From Pseudoclavibacter helvolus (GTDB taxonomy: Bacteria; Actinomycetota; Actinomycetes; Actinomycetales; Microbacteriaceae), in contig NZ_JACHWJ010000001.1 in the NCBI RefSeq assembly GCF_014191305.1, positions 868,001 through 932,000 on the forward strand: DNA of 64,000 bases, written 5' to 3'. Below the pieces are notes generated by a model that saw only the letters and a list, made by a program, of their open reading frames with translations, was not told the origin of the DNA and did no database searches. This document shows positions 10,997-21,097 of this stretch, in pieces. A program made the position numbers and the translations under genes. Every line of letters starts with the position of its first letter. Position 1 is the first letter of the stretch.

Positions 10997-11923
10997 CTAG
11001 CTACTGAACCTGACACCCCAGGCGGCGCTCCACGTCTCGCCTGAGCCGATTCCGATGAGGTCGGTGCCCGAGTTGAGGGCGTCAGGCGGAGCCGTCATGG
11101 GCTCCGCGGCGAAGGCGAGACCGGTGCCCCCGTGGTGCCCGTCTGGACGCGGGAAGTCGCTCGGCGTGTAGAGCTGCAGGTGACGGAAGGCCTCGTCTCC
11201 CCAGACCTCGAGTCGCGCGCCGGTTCGAGACTCGAGCGCGAGCAGTACCCGATCACCGCTTGGGCGGACGCGGAACGCGTAGTTGAGGTCGAGCTGACCG
11301 ACCTCGCGTCCTCTGGTCAAGTCGAATGCGCCCCCGGGCTCGATTGGCTCCGTGCCGATGGGAAGCAGCCGGTCGTCCAGAAGGACGCGCTCGAGGAGGT
11401 CCGAGGTCACGACGAGTTCGGCGATGGGTTCTTCGCCGATCCGGAAGTACGGATGCGCGCCAAGGGCGAACACGGCCTCACGAGTCCCGAGGTTGGTGAC
11501 CGTATGGGTGACCTCGAGCCCATCCTCGATTGCCCGGTACTTCACGCAGTGGCGGAGCGTGAACGGCCACCCGTGTTGCGGAAATACGGTGGCGCCGAGC
11601 TCGATGCTCGAGCCGTCCTTCTCGAGTACCGCGTACTCGGTGTTTCGGAGGAGCCCGTGCGAGGCGTTGCCCTTGCTGGGCTCAGTGATGTCGAGCTGCT
11701 GGGTCTTGCCGTCGAGGCTCCAATTGCCGTCGCGCACTCGGTTGGGCCACGGGAAGAGCGTGATGCCGGCGCCGAACGGCGGGAGGACGTCGTCCCCGAA
11801 GTCCTCGACGAGCTGAATGCCGTCGACTTCGAGCGAGCGCAGGACGCCGGCGACCGCGCCGACCGCGACGCGGACGCCGTCGTTCTCGAGCTCGTGACGG
11901 GTTCCGGTGACGGGTGGATGCAT
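10997..11923 (-). CDS. Aldose 1-epimerase family protein
   Basis: The 308-residue galactose-mutarotase-fold protein probably interconverts alpha and beta anomers of a hexose. Supporting motifs are TLFPWPNRVRDGNWSLDG (sugar binding), the catalytic histidine region NASHGLLRNTEY, FALGAHPYFRIG, and the late acid region LQLYTPSDFPRPDGHHGGTGLAFAAEPMT, of which only parts are quoted as conserved. ATG 11923 gives the standard length. It is the last gene of the minus-strand run starting at 17321, 29 bases after the FAD oxidoreductase, so it may be co-transcribed. It suits the sugar-uptake setting on its other side. Confidence 0.88.
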   Translation of the reverse strand: MHPPVTGTRHELENDGVRVAVGAVAGVLRSLEVDGIQLVEDFGDDVLPPFGAGITLFPWPNRVRDGNWSLDGKTQQLDITEPSKGNASHGLLRNTEYAVLEKDGSSIELGATVFPQHGWPFTLRHCVKYRAIEDGLEVTHTVTNLGTREAVFALGAHPYFRIGEEPIAELVVTSDLLERVLLDDRLLPIGTEPIEPGGAFDLTRGREVGQLDLNYAFRVRPSGDRVLLALESRTGARLEVWGDEAFRHLQLYTPSDFPRPDGHHGGTGLAFAAEPMTAPPDALNSGTDLIGIGSGETWSAAWGVRFSS

Positions 11924-11952: not shown

Positions 11953-13380
11953 CTACGTGCTGCGGGACCAATCGCGGAGCACCGCGCGTGCCGCGTGCAT
12001 CCCTGGCATGCCGTGGACACCGCCGCCGGGCGGGGTCGAAGAGGAGCACACGTACAGCCCGCGGCGGCCCGCTCGGTACGGGTGGAGCGTTGGTGCTGGC
12101 CTGAACAGTTGCTGCGTTCCCGCGAGCGTCCCTCCCCCGATGTCGCCGCCGACGAGGTTGGGGTTCCACGTCTCGAGCGCGCTCGGCGACCACTCTCGGC
12201 GTTCGAGGATGACGTCGCCGAAACCTGGGGCGAAGCGCTCGATCTGCGCTTCGAGCAGGGGCCGAACGTCATGCGCCGTCCCGTTTGGGACGTGCGCGTA
12301 GGTCCAGAGCACCTGCTTGCCGGCTCGCGTGCGGCTCGGGTCGGCGTTTGACTGCTGCGTCACCATGACAAACGGACGGTCCGGCATGCGACCTCGGTTC
12401 ACCGCCCGTTCGGCGGCGACGATCTCCCCCATCGTTCCGCCGACGTGCACGGTCCCCGCGCCGGAGACCCGAGCGTCGGCCCACGGCACGGAGCCGTCGA
12501 GCAGGTAGTCGATCTTGTGCACGCCAACCCCGTACTTCCACCGCGCGAGGTGGGCCGCGTATCTCGACTCAAGCTGGTCCGGGGCGATCTTAAGGATCTG
12601 CTTCGGGGTGAGGTCGAGGAGCACTGCGTCAGCTGACGGGAGGTCACGGAGATCCAAGATCTCCGAGTTCGTCTCGATGCGCCCGCCGTTGTCGACCAAG
12701 ACCTTGGCGAGAGCCTCGACGATGGCCGAGGAGCCTCCCCGCGCGACGGGCCAGCCAGTGCTGTGTCCCAGCGCGCCGAAGGCGATGCCAAAAGCGGCCG
12801 TCAGAGGTCGGGTCAGCGGCAGGGTGGGGTGCGCCGAGGAGCCAGCGAAGAGGGCCTTGGCCGCGCCGCTCCTGAACAGGAGCCCAGCCAAGGTCGCTGC
12901 CGGAAGAGCGCCCGGAAGACCGAGCCGCACCATGTCGATGGGATGCGGCGGGATGCGCAGGAGCGGCCCCATGGCGTTCTCGACGGTCTCGATCGGGTGA
13001 CGCGAGAAGTGCTCGTGCAGCCGACGCCACGCGGGCCCATCGACACCCAGCTCCCCAACCGTCAGCTCGATGTCCCGGTGCAGCATCGCGGCGCGCCCGC
13101 CCGGCAACGGGTGTGCCATCGGGATGACCGGATGCACCCACTCGAGCCCGTTCTGCTCGAGTTCGAGCTCGCGAAACGCGGGGCTTGCGATGCCGAACGG
13201 GTGAGCGGCGGCGCCGAGGTCGCTCACGTAGCCGGGGCCGAAGAGCTCGGCGGACCTGGCTGCTCCCCCAACCTGCGGGTCGCGCTCGTAGACGGTCACC
13301 TCGACGCCTCGCTTCGCGAGGAGCGCCGCGGCGGTGAGCCCGTTTGGTCCACCACCGACGACGATGGCCCGGCGGCTCAC
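11953..13380 (-). CDS. Phytoene-dehydrogenase-like FAD oxidoreductase
   Basis: The 475-residue protein has an N-terminal dinucleotide-binding motif (VVGGGPNGLTAAALLAKRG, then ExxxxxGGAAR) and a C-terminal flavin-binding end (VCSSSTPPGGGVHGMPGMHAA). This is the CrtI-related amine-oxidase group (NAD(P)/FAD-dependent oxidoreductase). No carotenoid genes are nearby, so phytoene is not a likely substrate. Start is GTG 13380, overlapping the previous stop as GTGA. It belongs to the tightly overlapping operon that begins with an acyl-CoA dehydrogenase-like gene, suggesting oxidation or isomerisation of the product made or modified there. Confidence 0.82.
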   Translation of the reverse strand: MSRRAIVVGGGPNGLTAAALLAKRGVEVTVYERDPQVGGAARSAELFGPGYVSDLGAAAHPFGIASPAFRELELEQNGLEWVHPVIPMAHPLPGGRAAMLHRDIELTVGELGVDGPAWRRLHEHFSRHPIETVENAMGPLLRIPPHPIDMVRLGLPGALPAATLAGLLFRSGAAKALFAGSSAHPTLPLTRPLTAAFGIAFGALGHSTGWPVARGGSSAIVEALAKVLVDNGGRIETNSEILDLRDLPSADAVLLDLTPKQILKIAPDQLESRYAAHLARWKYGVGVHKIDYLLDGSVPWADARVSGAGTVHVGGTMGEIVAAERAVNRGRMPDRPFVMVTQQSNADPSRTRAGKQVLWTYAHVPNGTAHDVRPLLEAQIERFAPGFGDVILERREWSPSALETWNPNLVGGDIGGGTLAGTQQLFRPAPTLHPYRAGRRGLYVCSSSTPPGGGVHGMPGMHAARAVLRDWSRST

Positions 13381-13904
13381 TGCGTGGCGCCGGCCTGCGG
13401 TTCCTGTTCGAGGAATCGCTCCTCGACGGAGTCGCGGCTAATGCTCTGGATGAGGTCGATCTGCGTTCGCGCGCGCGACTCGAGCGCCTCGAGCCCCGAG
13501 AGGACTAGCCGCGGATCGCTCGGCTGCACGGCGATGAGTGCCTCCCACATGGAGAGCTTGGCGCGCACCATGCCGGTGAGCGTGTCGAGCTCGAGTTGCG
13601 TGCTTGGCCGCTTGCGGAGGCGAAGGATGTTCACGGGGTTGAAGGTGCCAGCGACCCATGCCGCGTTGGTCAGCCACAGCTTGAGGACGGACTCGCGGTA
13701 GCCGAGCGCCTCGATGAGGGCCAGCAGGTCTCGGCGGTCGGCCGCAATGTGCGTGACGAGCAGCCGCATGGTCTTCTCGTGCGGGGTGCCGTGCCAGGTT
13801 GCGGTCGCGGACTTGAACGCCCGGAGTCCGGCCTCTGAGGCCAGGAGATGGGCGTTGAGGTAGCCCGCGTAGACCTCGTGGTCGAATCCTCGTGCTGTTG
13901 TCAT
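13377..13904 (-). CDS. Conserved helical protein of unknown function in the PIG-L/GT2 operon
   Basis: This 175-residue soluble protein is predicted mostly helical (LNAHLLASEAGLRAFKSAT, LLVTHIAADRRDLLALIEAL, LTGMVRAKLSMWEALIAV). The His/Glu-containing helices recall four-helix, ferritin-like or DinB-like bundles, but I see no convincing metal-site pattern and do not assign a family. It starts at ATG 13904, overlapping the GT2 stop as ATGA, and ends overlapping the FAD gene start. The strict overlaps on both sides mean it is translated with the pathway enzymes. Confidence 0.72.
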   Translation of the reverse strand: MTTARGFDHEVYAGYLNAHLLASEAGLRAFKSATATWHGTPHEKTMRLLVTHIAADRRDLLALIEALGYRESVLKLWLTNAAWVAGTFNPVNILRLRKRPSTQLELDTLTGMVRAKLSMWEALIAVQPSDPRLVLSGLEALESRARTQIDLIQSISRDSVEERFLEQEPQAGATQ

Positions 13905-14713
13905 CCAAAGCTCCTGACGCTTGTCGTGTCTCGATTGTCCCGTGGCCGAAGTTCTGGACCACAAAGGTCACTGAGGAAGCTCGCAAAGCCTCCAGGGGTG
14001 CGGCCGACCCGGCGCGCGGATGTCGTGACGGGGAGCCTCGCGCTCGATCGGATGACTCCCCCGATGGCGGCTATCGCCGCTACGAGGCCGACGTCTTCGT
14101 GCTCGTTCGAGGAGGGGAACTCTCCGGCGTTGAAGTACGTGGATGCTCGGACGCCGAGATTCGCGCCGTGCACGTGCGGGTGGCCTTCGACGCTCTCGTA
14201 TCCCTCGAGCCACCTCGCGCTCGTCTCCAGGTCCTCGGGATCCGGCGCCAGAATCACCGAGCCGAGGAGCAGGTCGACACCGTCGTCGGCGGCCTCGAGC
14301 TGCTTGGTGAGCCAGTCCGTGGGCACCGTCGAGTCTGCGTCCGTCGACGCGATCCAAGTCGCGCGGGTGTCGAGGGCAGGTGCACCGTGAGGAGCTTCGA
14401 GCGAGAGCGCGACACGAACGCCGTCACGCCTGGCGACGCCGACGGAACCGTCTGTCCGCTCGATCACGTGGATGCGCGCGTCGCGGGCCGCCGCGTCCGA
14501 GGCGATGCGGGCGCTCTTGTCGCGGCAGGTGTCGAGCACGAGCACCGTGCGGATACGGACTTGAGCGCCCGAGCCATTGTCGGCGCGCTCCAGGGCGTCC
14601 ATAGCGTCGGTGAGGGCGCTGAGGCAAGCGCCGAGCGTCTGTTCTTCGTCGCGAGCGGGCACCACGACTCGCACATCTCGGATGGGCGGTCGTCGCATCC
14701 GGAGCTCAGTCAC
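13901..14713 (-). CDS. Family 2 glycosyltransferase
   Basis: The 270-residue cytoplasmic GT-A enzyme has the N-terminal nucleotide-sugar segment VVVPARDEEQTLGACLSAL, the DxD-type motif ASTDADSTVP (near residues 133-142) and a later acceptor region with SSNEHEDVGL. There are no membrane helices. It starts at GTG 14713 overlapping the upstream stop (GTGA) and ends overlapping the helical protein (ATGA). GT2 enzymes next to PIG-L and methyltransferase genes suggest assembly of a small glycoconjugate. Donor and acceptor are not evident. Confidence 0.85.
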   Translation of the reverse strand: MTELRMRRPPIRDVRVVVPARDEEQTLGACLSALTDAMDALERADNGSGAQVRIRTVLVLDTCRDKSARIASDAAARDARIHVIERTDGSVGVARRDGVRVALSLEAPHGAPALDTRATWIASTDADSTVPTDWLTKQLEAADDGVDLLLGSVILAPDPEDLETSARWLEGYESVEGHPHVHGANLGVRASTYFNAGEFPSSNEHEDVGLVAAIAAIGGVIRSSARLPVTTSARRVGRTPGGFASFLSDLCGPELRPRDNRDTTSVRSFG

Positions 14714-16254
14714 AGTTTCACCGTCGGCTCAGTCGGTTTTGCTGGCTGCGGCGACTTCGCCGTCGGCCGCGGCGCGTGCTCCTGGTTCGGCTCTCCGCAC
14801 CACTGCGCGAAGCAGCTCTTGCGGGACCCCGGATCCCCGTTCTCGTAGACGTCGATGAGGGTGTCGTCCTGCACGAACGCGGCGAGGCGCCGCATCCCGA
14901 GCCTCGCCGCGAGAGCGTGCACGCGGTCGCCGTCGAGGGGCCAACCGACGATAGGCCCGCGCCAATGGCAGAGCACGAGCGCGCCCGACGGCGCGAGCGC
15001 CCGGCACGACCTGCTGACGAGCTCGCAGAGCTCATCCTCGGCGAGGTAGTAGCCCGTCTCGGAGAGCACTACGAGGTCCAGAGTCCCGTCTGGGACGTCG
15101 AGCATGTCCCACTCGTGCGGAAGCGTCGCGAGCACCAGCTCGACGGACGGGTTGCCCGCGAGTTTGGCCTCGGCGAGCCGGAGCGCGGCCGCGCTGGCAT
15201 CAACAGCGATGAGGCGGGAGGACCTCTCAGCCAGTGCCGCGGTGCTCTCGCCGATCGAGCAGCCGATCTCGAGAGCGTTCGGAGCGTGCGAGTCCGGCAG
15301 CATGGCCAGCAGCATGGCGAGCTTTCGTCGCTCATACCAGCTTGTCCGGAGGGCCCACGGGTCGTCGGCGTCTGCGTGGACACCGTCGAACTCGCTGCTC
15401 GCCGAGGTGGAGTCGCGCGTGGCAGGTGCCGTTACTCGGAAGACCTCGAAGTCTCGCTGGAAGTGCTCGAGCTGAGCCTGGCCCAGCACCGGCTCGTCGC
15501 CCGCGGCGTCCGTGAGTGGCTTGACCTGTGACGCGTGCGCTCCGAGCGCGTCGGACTTGCTCCCAACAGCTCCGGACGCGAGAGGCAGTCGATTCCAGTG
15601 TCGCCATTCCGTGTCGACGTCCGGCTCTGCCCAATGCCAGAACCAGATCGGGAACTCGAGCAGGAGCGCGCCCGCGTCGAGCGCTGTGCGTGCGAGGGCC
15701 TCGCCAACGGCCGCGTGGTCGGGGTGGCCGTCACGCCGATAGGGGGCAGCGACGATCACTCGCTTGCGGTCAGAATCCCGGATGAGCTTGTCCGCCGCTG
15801 CCGCGATCTCGGCGACGGAATCCGAGAGCGAACCATCCCGTAGCCCCAGCTCCACGGCCTCAGCGCGCCCGGGTCGGACGCCTACCGTGCCGGCGATCCG
15901 TCCCGCGCCGCTGCGCAGCTCTCGTAGGGCAGCGTCGAACTCGGCTCGGCGGGTCCCCGCCAGCTGCTCGGCGCTGACACTGGGCGACTCAGGATGCGAT
16001 GCCTCACCGCGGGTGCACAACAGCACCATCACGTCGGCACCAGCGGCGAGCGCCGTCACGATGAGGCCGGCAGCGCCCAGGCACTCGTCGTCGGGATGGG
16101 CGGCACCGACGAGGAGCACTCTGCCAGGACCGAAACTGATTTCAGGAGCCTCGGCATCCAGGACGGGCAAGCCCTCGAGGTCCGCACGACGCCAGTCCGC
16201 CTCGGCAGTCCCCGTCTGCAGGTGCGTGAATCCGGGATGCGCCGCACCGATCAT
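14710..16254 (-). CDS. Fused PIG-L deacetylase and SAM-dependent methyltransferase
   Basis: The 514-residue protein has two enzymes in one chain. Residues ~40-270 are a LmbE/PIG-L zinc deacetylase: VGAAHPDDECLGAAG near residue 50 and the later YRRDGHPDHAAVGEA supplying the second histidines. Residues ~300-480 are a class I methyltransferase of the NodS-like type: motif I LEIGCSIGESTAALAERS and LIAVDASAAALRLAEAK. Start ATG 16254 overlaps the upstream stop as ATGA. PIG-L enzymes remove N-acetyl groups from amino sugars (MshB is the actinobacterial example). Fusion to a methyltransferase, next to GT2, suggests deacetylation followed by methylation of a glycoconjugate. The substrate is unknown. 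Confidence 0.88.
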   Translation of the reverse strand: MIGAAHPGFTHLQTGTAEADWRRADLEGLPVLDAEAPEISFGPGRVLLVGAAHPDDECLGAAGLIVTALAAGADVMVLLCTRGEASHPESPSVSAEQLAGTRRAEFDAALRELRSGAGRIAGTVGVRPGRAEAVELGLRDGSLSDSVAEIAAAADKLIRDSDRKRVIVAAPYRRDGHPDHAAVGEALARTALDAGALLLEFPIWFWHWAEPDVDTEWRHWNRLPLASGAVGSKSDALGAHASQVKPLTDAAGDEPVLGQAQLEHFQRDFEVFRVTAPATRDSTSASSEFDGVHADADDPWALRTSWYERRKLAMLLAMLPDSHAPNALEIGCSIGESTAALAERSSRLIAVDASAAALRLAEAKLAGNPSVELVLATLPHEWDMLDVPDGTLDLVVLSETGYYLAEDELCELVSRSCRALAPSGALVLCHWRGPIVGWPLDGDRVHALAARLGMRRLAAFVQDDTLIDVYENGDPGSRKSCFAQWCGEPNQEHAPRPTAKSPQPAKPTEPTVKL

Positions 16255-17321
16255 GAGTCTCCGCCCTCGCGAGTTGGCGGCCGGTGGGCACCACGCGCCG
16301 CGGCGAGGAGATCGGTGCCGTGAGCTGCGTCGTCCCGTGCACCGTGGTGCTGCCTGAGGTACATGGTGAGGTCGGCGACCCGTCGGGCGTGCTCGGCGTC
16401 GAAGGCAAGCGGGCCCGGGCCGAGCGCCTCCCCGCAGATCTCGAGGATGCGCCAGCAGGTGTTGGCGGTGTTGCCCCTGACGCTCTGCGCGAGCGCCCAA
16501 TCTGACGTGCCGGCGTCGATCCGGTCGGCCGCGTCATCGAGCTGGACACGCAGCCCGCGGAGCAAGCGATCAGTCTCGCCGAGCCAGGCGAACCCGAGCT
16601 GGTCGGGCTCTCGAGTCTCGGCTGCCCTCAGCAGGGTTCGCCCGAGAGAGACCGTCGCGCCGAACCACACGGCAGCGACGCCGATGCCGCCCCACGCGAA
16701 GCCTGGCCGTGACGTGTACCAGTCGGGTCCGTCGCCGATGACGTGCGCCCGCGCTCGCGTGAGGTCGACGGGGCCGCTTGGAACACCGCGGAGTCCCGTG
16801 ATCGGCGCACCGCCCTCCCTCGGTGCGACCGAGTCCTGCCCGAGGTCGAGCACAAACATCCACTCGCCCTGGTCATCCGAAGCCGTCACGAGGGCCCGGT
16901 CGAGGTGCGCGGCAAGCGAGCACCAGCGCTTTGTCCCCGACAGCGCAGCGTCGCGATCGCTGGCGCGCGAGTGCGGGGCCTCCGCCGGTACCCACCGGAT
17001 CGAGACTGGCGATGCAGAGGCGAAGACGCCCCAGGTGGCCCCTGACTCCACGGAGGCACCGGACTGCTCGATGATCGCCGCCGCGTCGAAGTGCGGCTCG
17101 ACGACGCGGGCCGCGGTGAGGTCAAGCCCGCCGAGACGCGCGAGCAGTCCCAGGAGCGGACGTGTGCTGCCTCGTCCGGGAACTGGTGGCGGCGGCAGCT
17201 TGCTCAGGATGCCGAGAACGGGCGCGGCATCACCGTCGCACGTCGCTGCCACCTCGAGGAGGTCAACGGCACCGTCCCAGAACTCAGCCTCGACGTCGGT
17301 CGGGCCCAGGAGCTCAGACAT
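16251..17321 (-). CDS. Acyl-CoA dehydrogenase-like protein, first gene of the PIG-L/GT2 operon
   Basis: The 356-residue protein belongs to the acyl-CoA dehydrogenase superfamily, shown by the middle beta domain (SGTKRWCSLAAHLDRALVTA) and C-terminal helices (RGNTANTCWRILEICGEALG ... MYLRQHHGARDD). It is shorter than ordinary acyl-CoA dehydrogenases and lacks an obvious catalytic glutamate region, so it may hydroxylate or oxidise an unusual substrate. ATG 17321 has an AAGGAGGG site; the ATG at 17363 lacks one. It heads an operon in which every gene down to 11953 overlaps the next by 4 bases, and it is divergent from the GH15 gene. Confidence 0.75.
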   Translation of the reverse strand: MSELLGPTDVEAEFWDGAVDLLEVAATCDGDAAPVLGILSKLPPPPVPGRGSTRPLLGLLARLGGLDLTAARVVEPHFDAAAIIEQSGASVESGATWGVFASASPVSIRWVPAEAPHSRASDRDAALSGTKRWCSLAAHLDRALVTASDDQGEWMFVLDLGQDSVAPREGGAPITGLRGVPSGPVDLTRARAHVIGDGPDWYTSRPGFAWGGIGVAAVWFGATVSLGRTLLRAAETREPDQLGFAWLGETDRLLRGLRVQLDDAADRIDAGTSDWALAQSVRGNTANTCWRILEICGEALGPGPLAFDAEHARRVADLTMYLRQHHGARDDAAHGTDLLAAARGAHRPPTREGGDS

Positions 17322-17409
17322 GTGCCCTCCTTCCCGGAAGCCTCTGTACCGCGGGCGGCGCACACCCGGATCCCAGCACGCTACGCACCTCGAGAGGGAG
17401 GATCCGGGA

Positions 17410-17441
17410 GGGTTGACATGGCCTGATCAACCCGGTACCTG
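17410..17441 (+). promoter_or_regulatory. Candidate promoter/operator in the divergent gap before GH15
   Basis: TTGACA at 17413-17418 is a consensus -35 box, but the -10 hexamer 17 bases later (TACCTG) is weak. GGGTTGA (17410-17416) and TCAACCC (17427-17433) form a perfect 7-base inverted repeat overlapping the -35. The 209-base gap 17322-17530 otherwise shows no gene. A small AGGGT-CGTC-ACCCT stem lies just before the GH15 ATG and covers its ribosome site. Confidence 0.35.
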
Positions 17442-17530
17442 CGCGCGCTCACGAGTAGCCGCCGACGCTCAGGCACGCGGAGCAAACTCCCACGGAGTCG
17501 CCCGGGCAGTCCCGTAGGGTCGTCACCCTC

Positions 17531-19336
17531 ATGACGAAGACTCCCCCCGGACTTCCCCTTCGCGACTACGCCGCCATCGGCGATGGCCGCACCGTCGCCC
17601 TCATCGCGCAAAATGGCCGCGTCGACTGGCTGCCGCTGCCGAACCTCGACTCCCTCCCCGTCTTCGCCCGACTCCTCGACGAAAAAACCGGTGGATGCGT
17701 CGAGCTGCAGCCCGTCGACGACTTCGACTCGTCGAGGCGCTACATCGAACGCACCAACGTGCTCGAAACCATCTTCACGACTAAGAACGGCGTCGCCCGG
17801 GTCACGGACGCGATGGTCACCGGTGTCGCGGGTCGGCTCCCCTGGGCAGAGCTCGCGCGCCGAGTCGACGGCATCGAGGGGTCTGTCGAGTTCACCTGGC
17901 GCGTCACGCCAGGAACGATGCTCGGCACGAGATCCCCATGGCTCGATCGAGTTGGCGACCATACGATCATCCGCTGTGGGGAGCTGTCCATGGCAGTGGT
18001 CGGCACCGATCACAGCCCCGCGACCGCCGATCCGACCAGCTCGGGCCCAGCCCAGCTGCACGGTCGATTCACCGCCTCCGCCGATTCACGCCACCTGATT
18101 GTTCTCACCGCCACCGAGGGTGAACCGCTGCGCGTCCCTGATCCGCGACGGGTCGACACGGGTATCGACCGGACCATCGCGAGCTGGCTCAGCTGGTCAG
18201 AGGAGTTCTCCTACGACGGCCCGTGGGCGGAACAGGTGCAGCGCAGCGCGCTCGCCCTGAAGCTCCTCATCTTCAGCCCCACCGGGGCGATAGCGGCCGC
18301 CGCGACGACCTCGCTCCCCGAGAACCCGGCAGGCGGCAAGAACTGGGACTACCGCTTCGCCTGGATCCGCGACCTCGCCTACACGGCGCACGCCCTCGTC
18401 TGGTTCGGGCTCCGAGAGGAGACGCACGCCGCGATCTCCTGGCTGCTGCGCACGATCCGGGAGCAGAGCCCCGACATCTACGTCATGTACACGCTCGACG
18501 GGGCGACCTGTGCGGGCGTAGAGAAGTACGACGTGCCCGGCTGGCGTGGCAGCAGCCCGGTGGTGACCGGCAACCCTGCGCAGGGCCAACTCCAGCTCGG
18601 CATCTACGGCGACCTCATCGCGATCAGCCGAACGTACGTCGACGACGGCAACCTGCTCGACGTCGAGACGGCGCGGCTCCTCGCGAAGGTCGCAGACAAG
18701 GCCTGCGATGACTGGCGCAAGCGCGACGCCGGCATGTGGGAGCTCGGCGAAGACGAGCACTACACCTCCTCGAAGATGGGCTGCTGGCAGGCGCTCACCG
18801 ACGCCGTCGCGCTCGCGGAAGGCGCCCACATCGAGGGCGACGTCATTCGCTGGCGAGCCGAGCGCGACCGCATCCGCAAGTGGACCCTCGAGCACTGCTG
18901 GTCGGAGGAACTGGGCAGCTACGTCATGTACCCGGGCTCAGCGCGGCTCGACGCGTCCGTGCTCCTGCACGCGCCGAGCGGGTTCGACCGTGGTGCGCGG
19001 ATGTCATCCACGATCGACGCCCTCACCGCGGAGCTCGGCGAAGGCTCGCTGCTCTACCGCTATTCGGGCGTTGCCTCCGAGGAGCACACGTTTGTCGCGT
19101 GCGCCTTCTGGCGGGTCTCCGCACTCGCCTGCGTCGGCCGCCACGAAGAGGCAGTCTCCGCCATGGACGAGCTCGTCACCCAGGCCAACGACGTCGGGCT
19201 GCTCGCCGAGATGGTTGCTGCCAGCGACGGCGCCTTCTGGGGCAACCTGCCGCAGGGACTCAGCCACCTTGCGCTCGTCAGCGCGGCCCTCACGATCAAG
19301 GAACTCGCACCGGAGGAGACCACCGATGGTAAGTGA
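17531..19336 (+). CDS. Glycoside hydrolase family 15 (glucoamylase/trehalase-like)
   Basis: The 601-residue cytoplasmic enzyme has no signal peptide. It carries the family's N-terminal beta domain (LRDYAAIGDGRTVALIAQNG, VDWLPLPNLDS) and an (alpha/alpha)6 barrel with the diagnostic NWDYRFAWIRDLAYTAHAL near residue 275. The second active-site region is near MWELGEDEHYTSSKMGCWQAL (part quoted). Length is typical of actinobacterial GH15 proteins, some of which are trehalases and others glucoamylases, so the substrate stays open. It heads a plus-strand unit with SMP-30 (overlapping) and two SDR genes. Confidence 0.9.
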   Translation: MTKTPPGLPLRDYAAIGDGRTVALIAQNGRVDWLPLPNLDSLPVFARLLDEKTGGCVELQPVDDFDSSRRYIERTNVLETIFTTKNGVARVTDAMVTGVAGRLPWAELARRVDGIEGSVEFTWRVTPGTMLGTRSPWLDRVGDHTIIRCGELSMAVVGTDHSPATADPTSSGPAQLHGRFTASADSRHLIVLTATEGEPLRVPDPRRVDTGIDRTIASWLSWSEEFSYDGPWAEQVQRSALALKLLIFSPTGAIAAAATTSLPENPAGGKNWDYRFAWIRDLAYTAHALVWFGLREETHAAISWLLRTIREQSPDIYVMYTLDGATCAGVEKYDVPGWRGSSPVVTGNPAQGQLQLGIYGDLIAISRTYVDDGNLLDVETARLLAKVADKACDDWRKRDAGMWELGEDEHYTSSKMGCWQALTDAVALAEGAHIEGDVIRWRAERDRIRKWTLEHCWSEELGSYVMYPGSARLDASVLLHAPSGFDRGARMSSTIDALTAELGEGSLLYRYSGVASEEHTFVACAFWRVSALACVGRHEEAVSAMDELVTQANDVGLLAEMVAASDGAFWGNLPQGLSHLALVSAALTIKELAPEETTDGK

Positions 19337-20216
19337 ACCCACAGTCTTCCGCGAACTCCGCTCGATCTTGGTCGAGAGCATCTGGTGGGACGCCCGCACC
19401 GAGGAGCTCGCGTGGGTGGACATCACCGAGGGCACCTTCCACCGTGGCAGCCTCGACGGCCCCCGAGACGGTTCGTGCGACCGCGTCGCTGCGCTGCCCG
19501 CACCGGTCAGCGCGGTGCAGCCAGCCGCGGGCGGCGGTTTCGTCGCCTCGCTGCAGGACCGCATCGTCGAGCTCGACGCCGACGGCATGCTGACGAAGAC
19601 CATCGCTTCCGTCGAGCACTCGCACGGCGGCGTCCGCTTCAACGAGGGCAAGGTCGACCCGTTCGGGCGGTTCGTGGTCGGGTCGATGAACACGACCTCG
19701 CCAGCGGCCGACGGTGCCCTCTACACGTTTGACGCCGATGGCACGGTGCGGATGCTGCTCGGCGGTTTCCACACGACCAACGGCCTGGAATGGAGCGAGT
19801 CGGGCGACACGATGTACGTCACCGACACCTCGACGCAGACCATCTACAGAGCGCCATACGGACCTGAGCCGGACGATCTCGGGGAGCTCGAGCCGTTCAT
19901 CCGGGGTAGAAACTCCGATGGCCTGGCTCTTGGCGTGGATGGCACGTTCTGGAACGGCATCTACGGAGCCGGGCGCGTGGCTCACTGGAGCTCCGACGGG
20001 AACCCGCTCGAGGATCTCGCCCTGCCAGCCCCGAACGTGACCTCGGTCGCGTTTGGGGGTGGCAACCTCTCGACGCTCTTCGTCGGGACGGCGCGTGAGA
20101 ACCTCACCGAGAGTGACCTCGTAGACGCTCCGCTCAGCGGCTCGATCTTCGGCTTCGAGGCCGCAGGGCGCGGACGAGCGGCTTACGAGTTCGGCGCCGC
20201 TGCGGGCCAGCGGTAA
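19326..20216 (+). CDS. SMP-30/gluconolactonase family protein
   Basis: The 296-residue six-bladed beta-propeller probably hydrolyses a sugar lactone using one divalent metal. Visible signatures: an early Glu in LVESIWWDARTEELAWVDI, RFNEGKVDPFGRFVVGSMN (N and D metal ligands), FHTTNGLEWSESGDTMYVTD and GRNSDGLALGVDGTFWNGIY (DG metal ligand). ATG 19326 lies inside the end of the GH15 gene (11-base overlap), so the two are coupled. With the following dehydrogenases it could form a sugar oxidation route (sugar, lactone, acid). Confidence 0.88.
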   Translation: MVSEPTVFRELRSILVESIWWDARTEELAWVDITEGTFHRGSLDGPRDGSCDRVAALPAPVSAVQPAAGGGFVASLQDRIVELDADGMLTKTIASVEHSHGGVRFNEGKVDPFGRFVVGSMNTTSPAADGALYTFDADGTVRMLLGGFHTTNGLEWSESGDTMYVTDTSTQTIYRAPYGPEPDDLGELEPFIRGRNSDGLALGVDGTFWNGIYGAGRVAHWSSDGNPLEDLALPAPNVTSVAFGGGNLSTLFVGTARENLTESDLVDAPLSGSIFGFEAAGRGRAAYEFGAAAGQR

Positions 20217-20296: not shown

Positions 20297-21097
20297 ATGG
20301 ACCTAGGCATCACCGGCAAGAAGGCGCTCATCACGGGTGGCGACTCAGGCATCGGCTGGGAGACCGCCAAGCAGCTCCTCGAAGAGGGTGCGATCGTCGT
20401 CCTCAGCGACCAGGACGCGGACTCGCTCGCCGAGGCCGCGGCCAAGCTCGACGCCCCGGAGGGCAAGCTCTTCGCCCACGCCGCCGACATCACGAAGCTC
20501 GACGAGCTCGCCGAGCTGCACGGTTTCGTGCAGGAACACGTCGGCGACATCGACATCCTCGTCCAGTCCGCCGGCATCACCGGCGCACAGGGCCTCTTCC
20601 ACGAGATCGACGACGATGGCTGGACCAAGACCGTCGAGATCGACCTCCTCGGGCCGGTGCGCCTCGTGCGCCAGTTCCTGCCGTCCCTCCGCAAGGGCGG
20701 CTGGGGGCGCATCGTGTTCCTCGCGTCAGAGGACGCCGTGCAGCCCTACGACGACGAGCTCCCGTACTGCGCGGCGAAGGCCGGCATCCTCGCGCTCTCC
20801 AAGGGGCTCTCGCGCAGCTACGCCTCCGAGGGGCTGCTCGTCAACGCCGTCTCCCCGGCGTTCATATCGACGCCCATGACCGACGCCATGATGGAAAAGC
20901 GCGCCAAGGAGCTCGGCACGAGCGTCGATGAGGCCATCGAGTCGTTCCTCGACGAGGAGCGTCCCTACATGGAACTCGGTCGCCGCGGCGAGCCCAGCGA
21001 GGTCGCCTCCGTCATCACGTTCCTCTGCTCCGACCGAGCCTCGTTCGTGAACGGCTCGAACTACCGAGTCGACTCCGGCTCGGTCGCGACCATCTAG
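20297..21097 (+). CDS. Short-chain dehydrogenase/reductase
   Basis: The 266-residue Rossmann oxidoreductase has cofactor motif ITGGDSGIGWETAKQL, with Asp after beta-2 (LSDQDA), which favours NAD over NADP. It also has the active-site Tyr-Lys (YCAAKAGILALSKGL) and the usual C-terminal NGSNYRVDSGS. The residue at the catalytic Ser position lies in FLASEDAVQPY. An Asn-Ala-Gly motif reads QSAGITG, a mild deviation. ATG 20297 follows GGGAGACAGGAAC. It sits 80 bases after SMP-30, probably co-transcribed. The substrate is unknown; a polyol or sugar alcohol is plausible from context. Confidence 0.9.
   Translation: MDLGITGKKALITGGDSGIGWETAKQLLEEGAIVVLSDQDADSLAEAAAKLDAPEGKLFAHAADITKLDELAELHGFVQEHVGDIDILVQSAGITGAQGLFHEIDDDGWTKTVEIDLLGPVRLVRQFLPSLRKGGWGRIVFLASEDAVQPYDDELPYCAAKAGILALSKGLSRSYASEGLLVNAVSPAFISTPMTDAMMEKRAKELGTSVDEAIESFLDEERPYMELGRRGEPSEVASVITFLCSDRASFVNGSNYRVDSGSVATI

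Follow-up and report, generated by a model that had tools for sequence, protein, structure and literature searches.

A conserved three-gene cassette, possibly for a methylated and oxidised amino sugar, within a larger operon of Pseudoclavibacter helvolus

Five genes of Pseudoclavibacter helvolus, here termed g1 to g5, follow one another on the minus strand of a 64,000-nucleotide stretch of DNA (the window; contig NZ_JACHWJ010000001.1, positions 868,001–932,000), each overlapping the next by four bases. g1 (16251..17321; 356 amino acids) encodes an acyl-CoA-dehydrogenase-like flavoprotein whose family profile lies nearest to DszC-type flavin monooxygenases; g2 (14710..16254; 514 amino acids) a fusion of a PIG-L domain, of the metal-dependent de-N-acetylase family, with a NodS-like S-adenosylmethionine (SAM) methyltransferase; g3 (13901..14713; 270 amino acids) a family-2 glycosyltransferase (GT2); g4 (13377..13904; 175 amino acids) a protein without a Pfam family; and g5 (11953..13380; 475 amino acids) a CrtI/CrtO-like FAD oxidoreductase. 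All four junctions, ATGA at g1/g2 (16251..16254), GTGA at g2/g3 (14710..14713), ATGA at g3/g4 (13901..13904) and GTGA at g4/g5 (13377..13380), are genuine minus-strand overlaps and lie where a first-pass annotation of the window had placed them; Pfam likewise backs the PIG-L-methyltransferase fusion, the GT2 enzyme and the FAD/NAD-binding oxidoreductase that it had named. A sixth minus-strand gene, outside the five that it had listed, begins 29 bases past g5. This gene, g6 (10997..11923), belongs to the aldose 1-epimerase family (Pfam E-value 4.3e-31), occupies the same place in four other Pseudoclavibacter and is probably co-transcribed with g1–g5. Based on the comparisons below, we read the operon as a cassette, g1–g3, joined by an accessory pair, g4–g5, and the epimerase gene g6, and we consider the chances about even that the cassette directs the biosynthesis of a methylated, oxidised amino sugar, with g4–g5 and g6 added in Pseudoclavibacter.

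The arrangement is well kept within the genus. g2 matched its counterparts in four named Pseudoclavibacter strains at 85, 68, 68 and 66%, and all four strains share the order histidine-kinase-like gene, GH15 gene, g1–g6, LacI gene and ABC ATPase gene, with every one of the four overlaps kept and ATG, GTG or TTG as start codons. At the thresholds applied, g2, g4 and g5 were all without a match in the small genome G136 of the same genus. Scanning genomes with g2 yielded 25 loci, including 18 actinobacterial loci outside Pseudoclavibacter (L038–L055) and partial g2 matches (L056–L058). In the 18 named loci g3 always adjoins g2, and g1 does so in 17; the sole locus lacking it, L047, starts near a contig end. 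Moreover, g1, g2 and g3 stand together in all 25 further stretches from the family of P. helvolus, with one rearrangement (L113, in G004), while none of 32 control stretches, taken from 16 of those family genomes, holds g1, g2 or g3. Loci were chosen through g2, and these co-occurrence counts are conditional on it. Among 150 sampled family genomes, that of P. helvolus included, 53 carry g2, fused or split, at E ≤ 1e-20.

In 42 of 58 loci PIG-L and methyltransferase form a single fused protein; in nine they overlap by four bases, and in the remainder they are separate. In an overlap survey of 59 loci, two of which offered no measurable pair at each of the following junctions, a 4-base overlap joins g1 to g2 in 42/57 and the methyltransferase to the glycosyltransferase in 36/57. 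Because overlaps of the ATGA, GTGA or TTGA type recur at the same junctions in the four other Pseudoclavibacter, and among distantly related bacteria too, those of the operon exceed what chance would give, as judged by sequence comparison. The rest of the window has two such overlaps outside the operon, with 27 same-strand neighbour pairs in all, as counted by a crude gene caller that missed g3. In Janibacter hoylei the glycosyltransferase gene is distributed over two reading frames (L049 11239-11926), through either a sequencing error or breakage of the gene. Taken by gene neighbourhood, g1-g2-g3 is thus a conserved, predicted biosynthetic unit of wide taxonomic spread.

That spread extends well beyond the Actinomycetota. 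Searched at the protein level, plasmid records yielded 77 with g2 relatives; Acinetobacter accounts for 19 of these, three being chromosome-sized. A methyltransferase match by itself occurs in 8 of 247 genomes of the phylum of L056, its own included (E 6.8e-26 to 1.8e-33). We examined 24 annotated stretches and called a cassette full where flavoprotein, deacetylase and methyltransferase lie together or a few kb apart. Sixteen are full (L059-L065, L119, L120, L122, L123, L124, L169, L171, L172 and L173). The other eight comprise a glycosyltransferase only (L117, L118, L121, L126), a glycosyltransferase fragment (L125), trifunctional proteins (L167 and L168, the latter annotated merely as a glycosyltransferase) and a methyltransferase with a glycosyltransferase (L170). 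Acinetobacter, Comamonas, Novosphingobium, Bradyrhizobium and Deinococcus are among the bacteria with unfused versions, and the cassette ranges over Actinomycetota, Deinococcota and three pseudomonadotal classes, on chromosomes as well as plasmids. When 25 proteins were compared, the flavoprotein of Legionella lytica, annotated as hypothetical, aligned with g1 (E 8e-20). The flavoprotein gene of Deinococcus runs to about 780 codons (L172 3145-5484), genes of 2.3–2.4 kb also occur in L060 and L124, and in the D. radiodurans protein the first 400 residues lack a Pfam match, the flavoprotein part standing at the end.

The deacetylase itself is exchanged in some of these relatives. A Rubrobacter cluster has a CE4 polysaccharide deacetylase where PIG-L would stand, and in Sulfitobacter indolifex and Mesorhizobium GT2, NodS-like and CE4 domains form one protein. 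Since two unrelated deacetylase families, PIG-L and CE4, serve the same partners, de-N-acetylation together with methylation appears to be conserved. Glycosyl transfer, de-N-acetylation and methylation thus look like the conserved logic of the cassette, for which this swap is the best evidence. Against it stands the observation that in several alphaproteobacterial and Deinococcus versions the glycosyltransferase is missing from the stretch or lies on the other strand.

The individual domains fit such chemistry. The PIG-L half of g2 passes its Pfam model (83.6 bits; cut-off 28.2) and carries both metal-binding motifs, AHPDDE and HPDH; a pattern search of whole open frames found HPDD in 54/58 and HxDH in 57/58 PIG-L frames of relatives. 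The methyltransferase half, which shows a SAM-site motif, passes Pfam NodS (45.4 bits; cut-off 24) but fails the NCBIfam NodS equivalog (53.1 versus 300 bits), and in the PDB it matches 4isc, titled just 'Methyltransferase', at E 1.4e-34 and the solved NodS at 4.4e-8. g3 passes Pfam GT2 (48.6 bits; cut-off 23.3) and has its DxD motif, expected at the nucleotide-sugar site, as TDAD, which recurs in 50/57 glycosyltransferase frames; for five of the seven frames without it, the glycosyltransferase taken was a second one. g3 stays below the mycofactocin model TIGR03965 (19.9 versus 280 bits) and the arsenosugar model TIGR04283 (23.7 versus 182 bits). None of g1–g5 shows a clear membrane segment, the lone hydrophobic peak above 1.6 lying inside the PIG-L domain of g2, where it would be non-membrane. 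As an aside, PADLOC gave partial matches alone (methyltransferase half with mads_2, 2.9e-12; g5 FAD domain with a desaturase, 4.1e-7), and we rejected a role in anti-phage defence.

Two known systems offer a comparison. Nod factor synthesis by NodC-NodB-NodS likewise combines a GT2 enzyme, a de-N-acetylase and a NodS-family N-methyltransferase that acts on the freed amine, and the CE4 deacetylase of the trifunctional relatives is of the NodB type. By contrast, the operon lacks an acyltransferase, most members examined use PIG-L rather than CE4, a flavoprotein is attached, g3 is without a clear membrane segment and the methyltransferase scores far under the NodS equivalog cut-off. Mycothiol and bacillithiol synthesis (MshA-MshB, BshA-BshB) also starts with glycosyl transfer, after which a PIG-L enzyme deacetylates a small conjugate; it differs in using another glycosyltransferase family and in ligating cysteine where the present cassette would methylate. 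The earlier suggestion of modified amino-sugar chemistry is thus plausible from the gene families, and the cassette may be regarded as a variant of known chemistry of this kind.

Instead of building an amino sugar as a small molecule, the glycosyltransferase, deacetylase and methyltransferase might decorate a polymer or a lipid-linked glycan at the cell surface. The trifunctional protein of S. indolifex adjoins polysaccharide genes, the cassette is bordered by further glycosyltransferase genes in Novosphingobium and, together with a UDP-galactopyranose mutase gene, in Deinococcus gobiensis, and the PDB matches of the glycosyltransferase profile include undecaprenyl-phosphate sugar transferases, weakly (1.2e-4). 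In addition, a different PIG-L protein is found in the lipopolysaccharide-core gene table of Pseudomonas syringae that forms part of PMC8005017. The lack of a clear membrane segment in g1–g5 argues against this explanation, as does the company that the cassette keeps: 9 of the 16 full cassettes (L061, L062, L063, L064, L119, L120, L122, L169 and L173) have stress-type genes nearby, counted as catalase, OtsA/OtsB, GlgE, GH65, Ku/LigD, CsbD and Hsp20 within the stretch shown. We therefore regard a cell-surface role as rather unlikely and retain amino-sugar biosynthesis as the preferred reading.

The same neighbours suggest when the cassette might be used. In two Comamonas, otsA, the flavoprotein, PIG-L, methyltransferase and glycosyltransferase genes and otsB succeed each other in closely packed order, and on an Acinetobacter haemolyticus plasmid (L061 4257-18731) the cassette and otsBA lie between insertion sequence elements with katE near. 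KatE is encoded within 10 kb in 8 of the 18 named actinobacterial loci (four Knoellia, two Janibacter, Glutamicibacter and Arthrobacter), a manganese catalase gene lies near the cassette in Actinopolyspora (L054), and among the eight stretches without a full cassette a catalase gene stands directly by the glycosyltransferase gene in L117, L121 and L126 and a catalase-family gene about 2 kb off in L170. For six of the nine positives, a stretch from the far side of the record served as control: stress-list genes were present in 0/6, one stretch holding an SOS-response peptidase. These observations suggest use by those other bacteria in oxidative, drying or stationary-phase stress.

Several points weigh against that suggestion. 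The stress list was compiled after the first regions had been read, and the far-side controls come from positive records only. Seven of the 16 full cassettes (L059, L060, L065, L123, L124, L171 and L172) are without genes on the list, L065, where one gene carries the annotation 'general stress protein', being counted as negative. Two genera, Knoellia and Janibacter, account for six of the eight actinobacterial loci with KatE, and the 32 control stretches represent the family genomes, not those of the 18 named loci. Within the family, cassettes lie near KatE in 0/25, Ku/LigD in 1/25 and Hsp20 in 2/25, which does not differ from 0/32 controls for each; OtsA/OtsB genes are near 0/43 actinobacterial loci, and the catalase of the P. 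helvolus genome is on a different contig.

The first-pass annotation had called g1 acyl-CoA dehydrogenase-like, which holds for the fold but is doubtful as an identity. The sole Pfam match of g1, Acyl-CoA_dh_M, stays below threshold (19.8 bits; cut-off 33.3). A 25-row profile of the g1 family placed DszC first in the PDB (3e-17) and reached methanesulfinate monooxygenase at 3.4e-14. The amino-sugar N-oxygenases DnmZ and nitrososynthase, which share the DszC fold, followed at 4.8e-8 and 3e-7. The Novosphingobium member, searched alone, matched DszC, TdsC and methanesulfinate monooxygenase, and otherwise three esterases at 0.37. A middle-domain motif common to DszC, G-x4-CS-x-[AG], is present in 53/58 g1-family frames, while the ITN motif typical of the middle domain of acyl-CoA dehydrogenases occurs in 0/58. 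g1 thus resembles DszC and methanesulfinate monooxygenase in belonging to the acyl-CoA dehydrogenase fold family and, for DszC, in its CSGA motif. It is shorter than DszC-type enzymes and N-oxygenases, the latter score far below DszC, and no flavin reductase family was recognised in the operon.

Alternatively, g1 could be a true acyl-CoA or acyl-ACP (acyl carrier protein) dehydrogenase, and the product would then carry a modified acyl chain. Some relatives do carry Acyl-CoA_dh Pfam domains, and the profile, which finds many dehydrogenases, scores them almost equal to DszC: 2dvl, named an acyl-CoA dehydrogenase, at 9.6e-17 and acyl-CoA dehydrogenase type 2 proteins at 8.1e-17. Also unfavourable to a monooxygenase, a PDB search with g1 alone (E up to 1) came back empty, and the Novosphingobium protein with the clean DszC match is itself one of five members, each from an alphaproteobacterium, in which the CS motif is missing. 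Because that protein lacks the motif, motif and DszC match are evidence from different proteins. On the other side, the CS-x-[AG] motif stands in place of the ITN type in the great majority of members, one search with a single member returned exclusively monooxygenases at E below 0.01, and no acyltransferase or ACP family is present among the six operon genes. We accordingly hold a dehydrogenase to be unlikely and favour a DszC-like flavin monooxygenase, a preference drawn from sequence similarity.

A different question is how far the pathway extends along the operon. In the single five-gene pathway proposed at first, all five proteins would act in sequence on one modified sugar as an obligate set. 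The four overlaps and the order kept in four other Pseudoclavibacter speak for it, and so does the position of g4-g5 in Glutamicibacter and Arthrobacter, the two of the 18 named actinobacterial loci that have the pair nearby, where it stands on the opposite strand at a distance of up to about 1 kb from the cassette. However, g4 (E ≤ 1e-5) occurs in 4/150 family genomes, and 50 of the 53 genomes with g2 lack it; g2 and g4 coexist in just three, the P. helvolus window genome, G073 and G119. On a 2.67-Mb contig of G119, the cassette is positioned at 0.31 Mb and g4-g5 at 2.51 Mb, which on a circular molecule would put about 0.47 Mb between them, and G049 has g4-g5 but yields no match to g2 (E ≤ 1e-20). 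There, a SIR2-domain open reading frame (ORF) separates g4 from g5 (L098 8765-12904), with a Fic-domain ORF near. The pair keeps its own 4-base overlap in six of six measured loci (four Pseudoclavibacter, Glutamicibacter and Arthrobacter). Since g4 is rare among g2-bearing genomes, and the pair can stand apart or alone and has an overlap of its own, g1–g3 and g4–g5 are two modules by genome comparison. The genes of an obligate pathway are, as far as g4–g5 are concerned, scattered in relatives, and we reject the five-gene version as improbable; g1–g3 remain as the unit.

The pair is therefore independent of the cassette, which by its distribution it joined in Pseudoclavibacter; it is a coupled pair that lies near the cassette in a few lineages, with g5 a likely redox enzyme. 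g5 has an N-terminal FAD domain, a feature of CrtO/CrtI oxidoreductases, and its best curated match is CrtO (NF045689), at 103.3 bits about a tenth of the cut-off of 1000; no carotenoid-synthesis family was found among its scanned neighbours. A g5-like protein (E ≤ 1e-60) occurs in 106/150 family genomes, mostly at 39–48% identity. g4 has no convincing PDB relative (best E 0.28). Distant g4 relatives occur in 25 of 296 phylum genomes, P. helvolus included, and at their loci (L078-L096) no link to the cassette was seen among 55 ORFs of 19 loci, in which ATP synthase and EPSP-synthase families were commonest (three each).

A variant of mycothiol or bacillithiol metabolism, with PIG-L acting as MshB or Mca, is rejected as most improbable: the PIG-L half does match MshB, BshB and Mca models and the order of glycosyltransferase and PIG-L steps is like that of mycothiol synthesis, but g2 scores 40.8 bits where the MshB model TIGR03445 demands 224.35, two other matches in the genome fit the MshB family better (186.5 and 115.2 bits, each again under the cut-off), and no ligase-type family is present among the six operon genes.

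On the divergent side of the operon lie genes for a GH15 protein with a trehalase-like N-terminal domain (17531..19336, plus strand), an SMP-30/gluconolactonase family protein (19326..20216, plus strand) and two short-chain dehydrogenases/reductases, one at 20297..21097 on the plus strand. The region between g1 and the GH15 gene (17322..17530; more widely, 17319-17533) contains long invariant blocks across five Pseudoclavibacter sequences and possibly acts as a shared control element. This divergent unit, noted earlier as a possible supplier or consumer of the sugar, exists as described, but outside Pseudoclavibacter the GH15 gene adjoins the cassette in 1/43 loci (G007, of another genus, 64% identical). 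A copy of the short-chain dehydrogenase/reductase, 80% identical, adjoins the cassette in G111. The GH15 protein, with its trehalase-like domain, is the one hint towards trehalose in the window.

Based on these results, we suggest a route in the cytosol in which g3 would use an activated donor to place an N-acetylated amino sugar on a small acceptor molecule, the acetyl group would be stripped off by the PIG-L half of g2, the NodS-like half of g2 would methylate the freed amine and g1, as a DszC-like enzyme, would oxygenate the product, plausibly at the N-methylamine. That the methyl group goes onto the freed nitrogen we infer from the likeness to NodS. Trehalose or a relative is a candidate acceptor or partner. 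In its most specific form, which we consider decidedly speculative, the product would be an N-methylated, N-oxygenated amino sugar of the hydroxylamine or nitrone type on trehalose or a related small sugar, serving as a redox-active protectant across phyla.

The earlier statement that no known pathway has this gene set stands within the open-access literature, the range covered here to the exclusion of subscription papers and preprints, in which our searches found no description of the set. A description of the cassette is absent from the relevant parts of PMC4101496, PMC8005017, PMC12613277 and PMC12029717; in those parts PMC12613277 treats pig-L genes, not the cassette, and PMC12029717 contains no PIG-L. 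The unit that emerges has three genes, not five, and occurs in very different bacteria, which takes it beyond the first-pass annotation. It is annotated piecemeal, and the frequent labelling of its flavoprotein as an acyl-CoA dehydrogenase is potentially misleading. Both the deacetylase swap and the embedding between otsA and otsB make the chemistry directly testable, and if the product is indeed a protective amino-sugar conjugate, the cassette would represent a shared component of bacterial stress physiology that has gone unrecognised.

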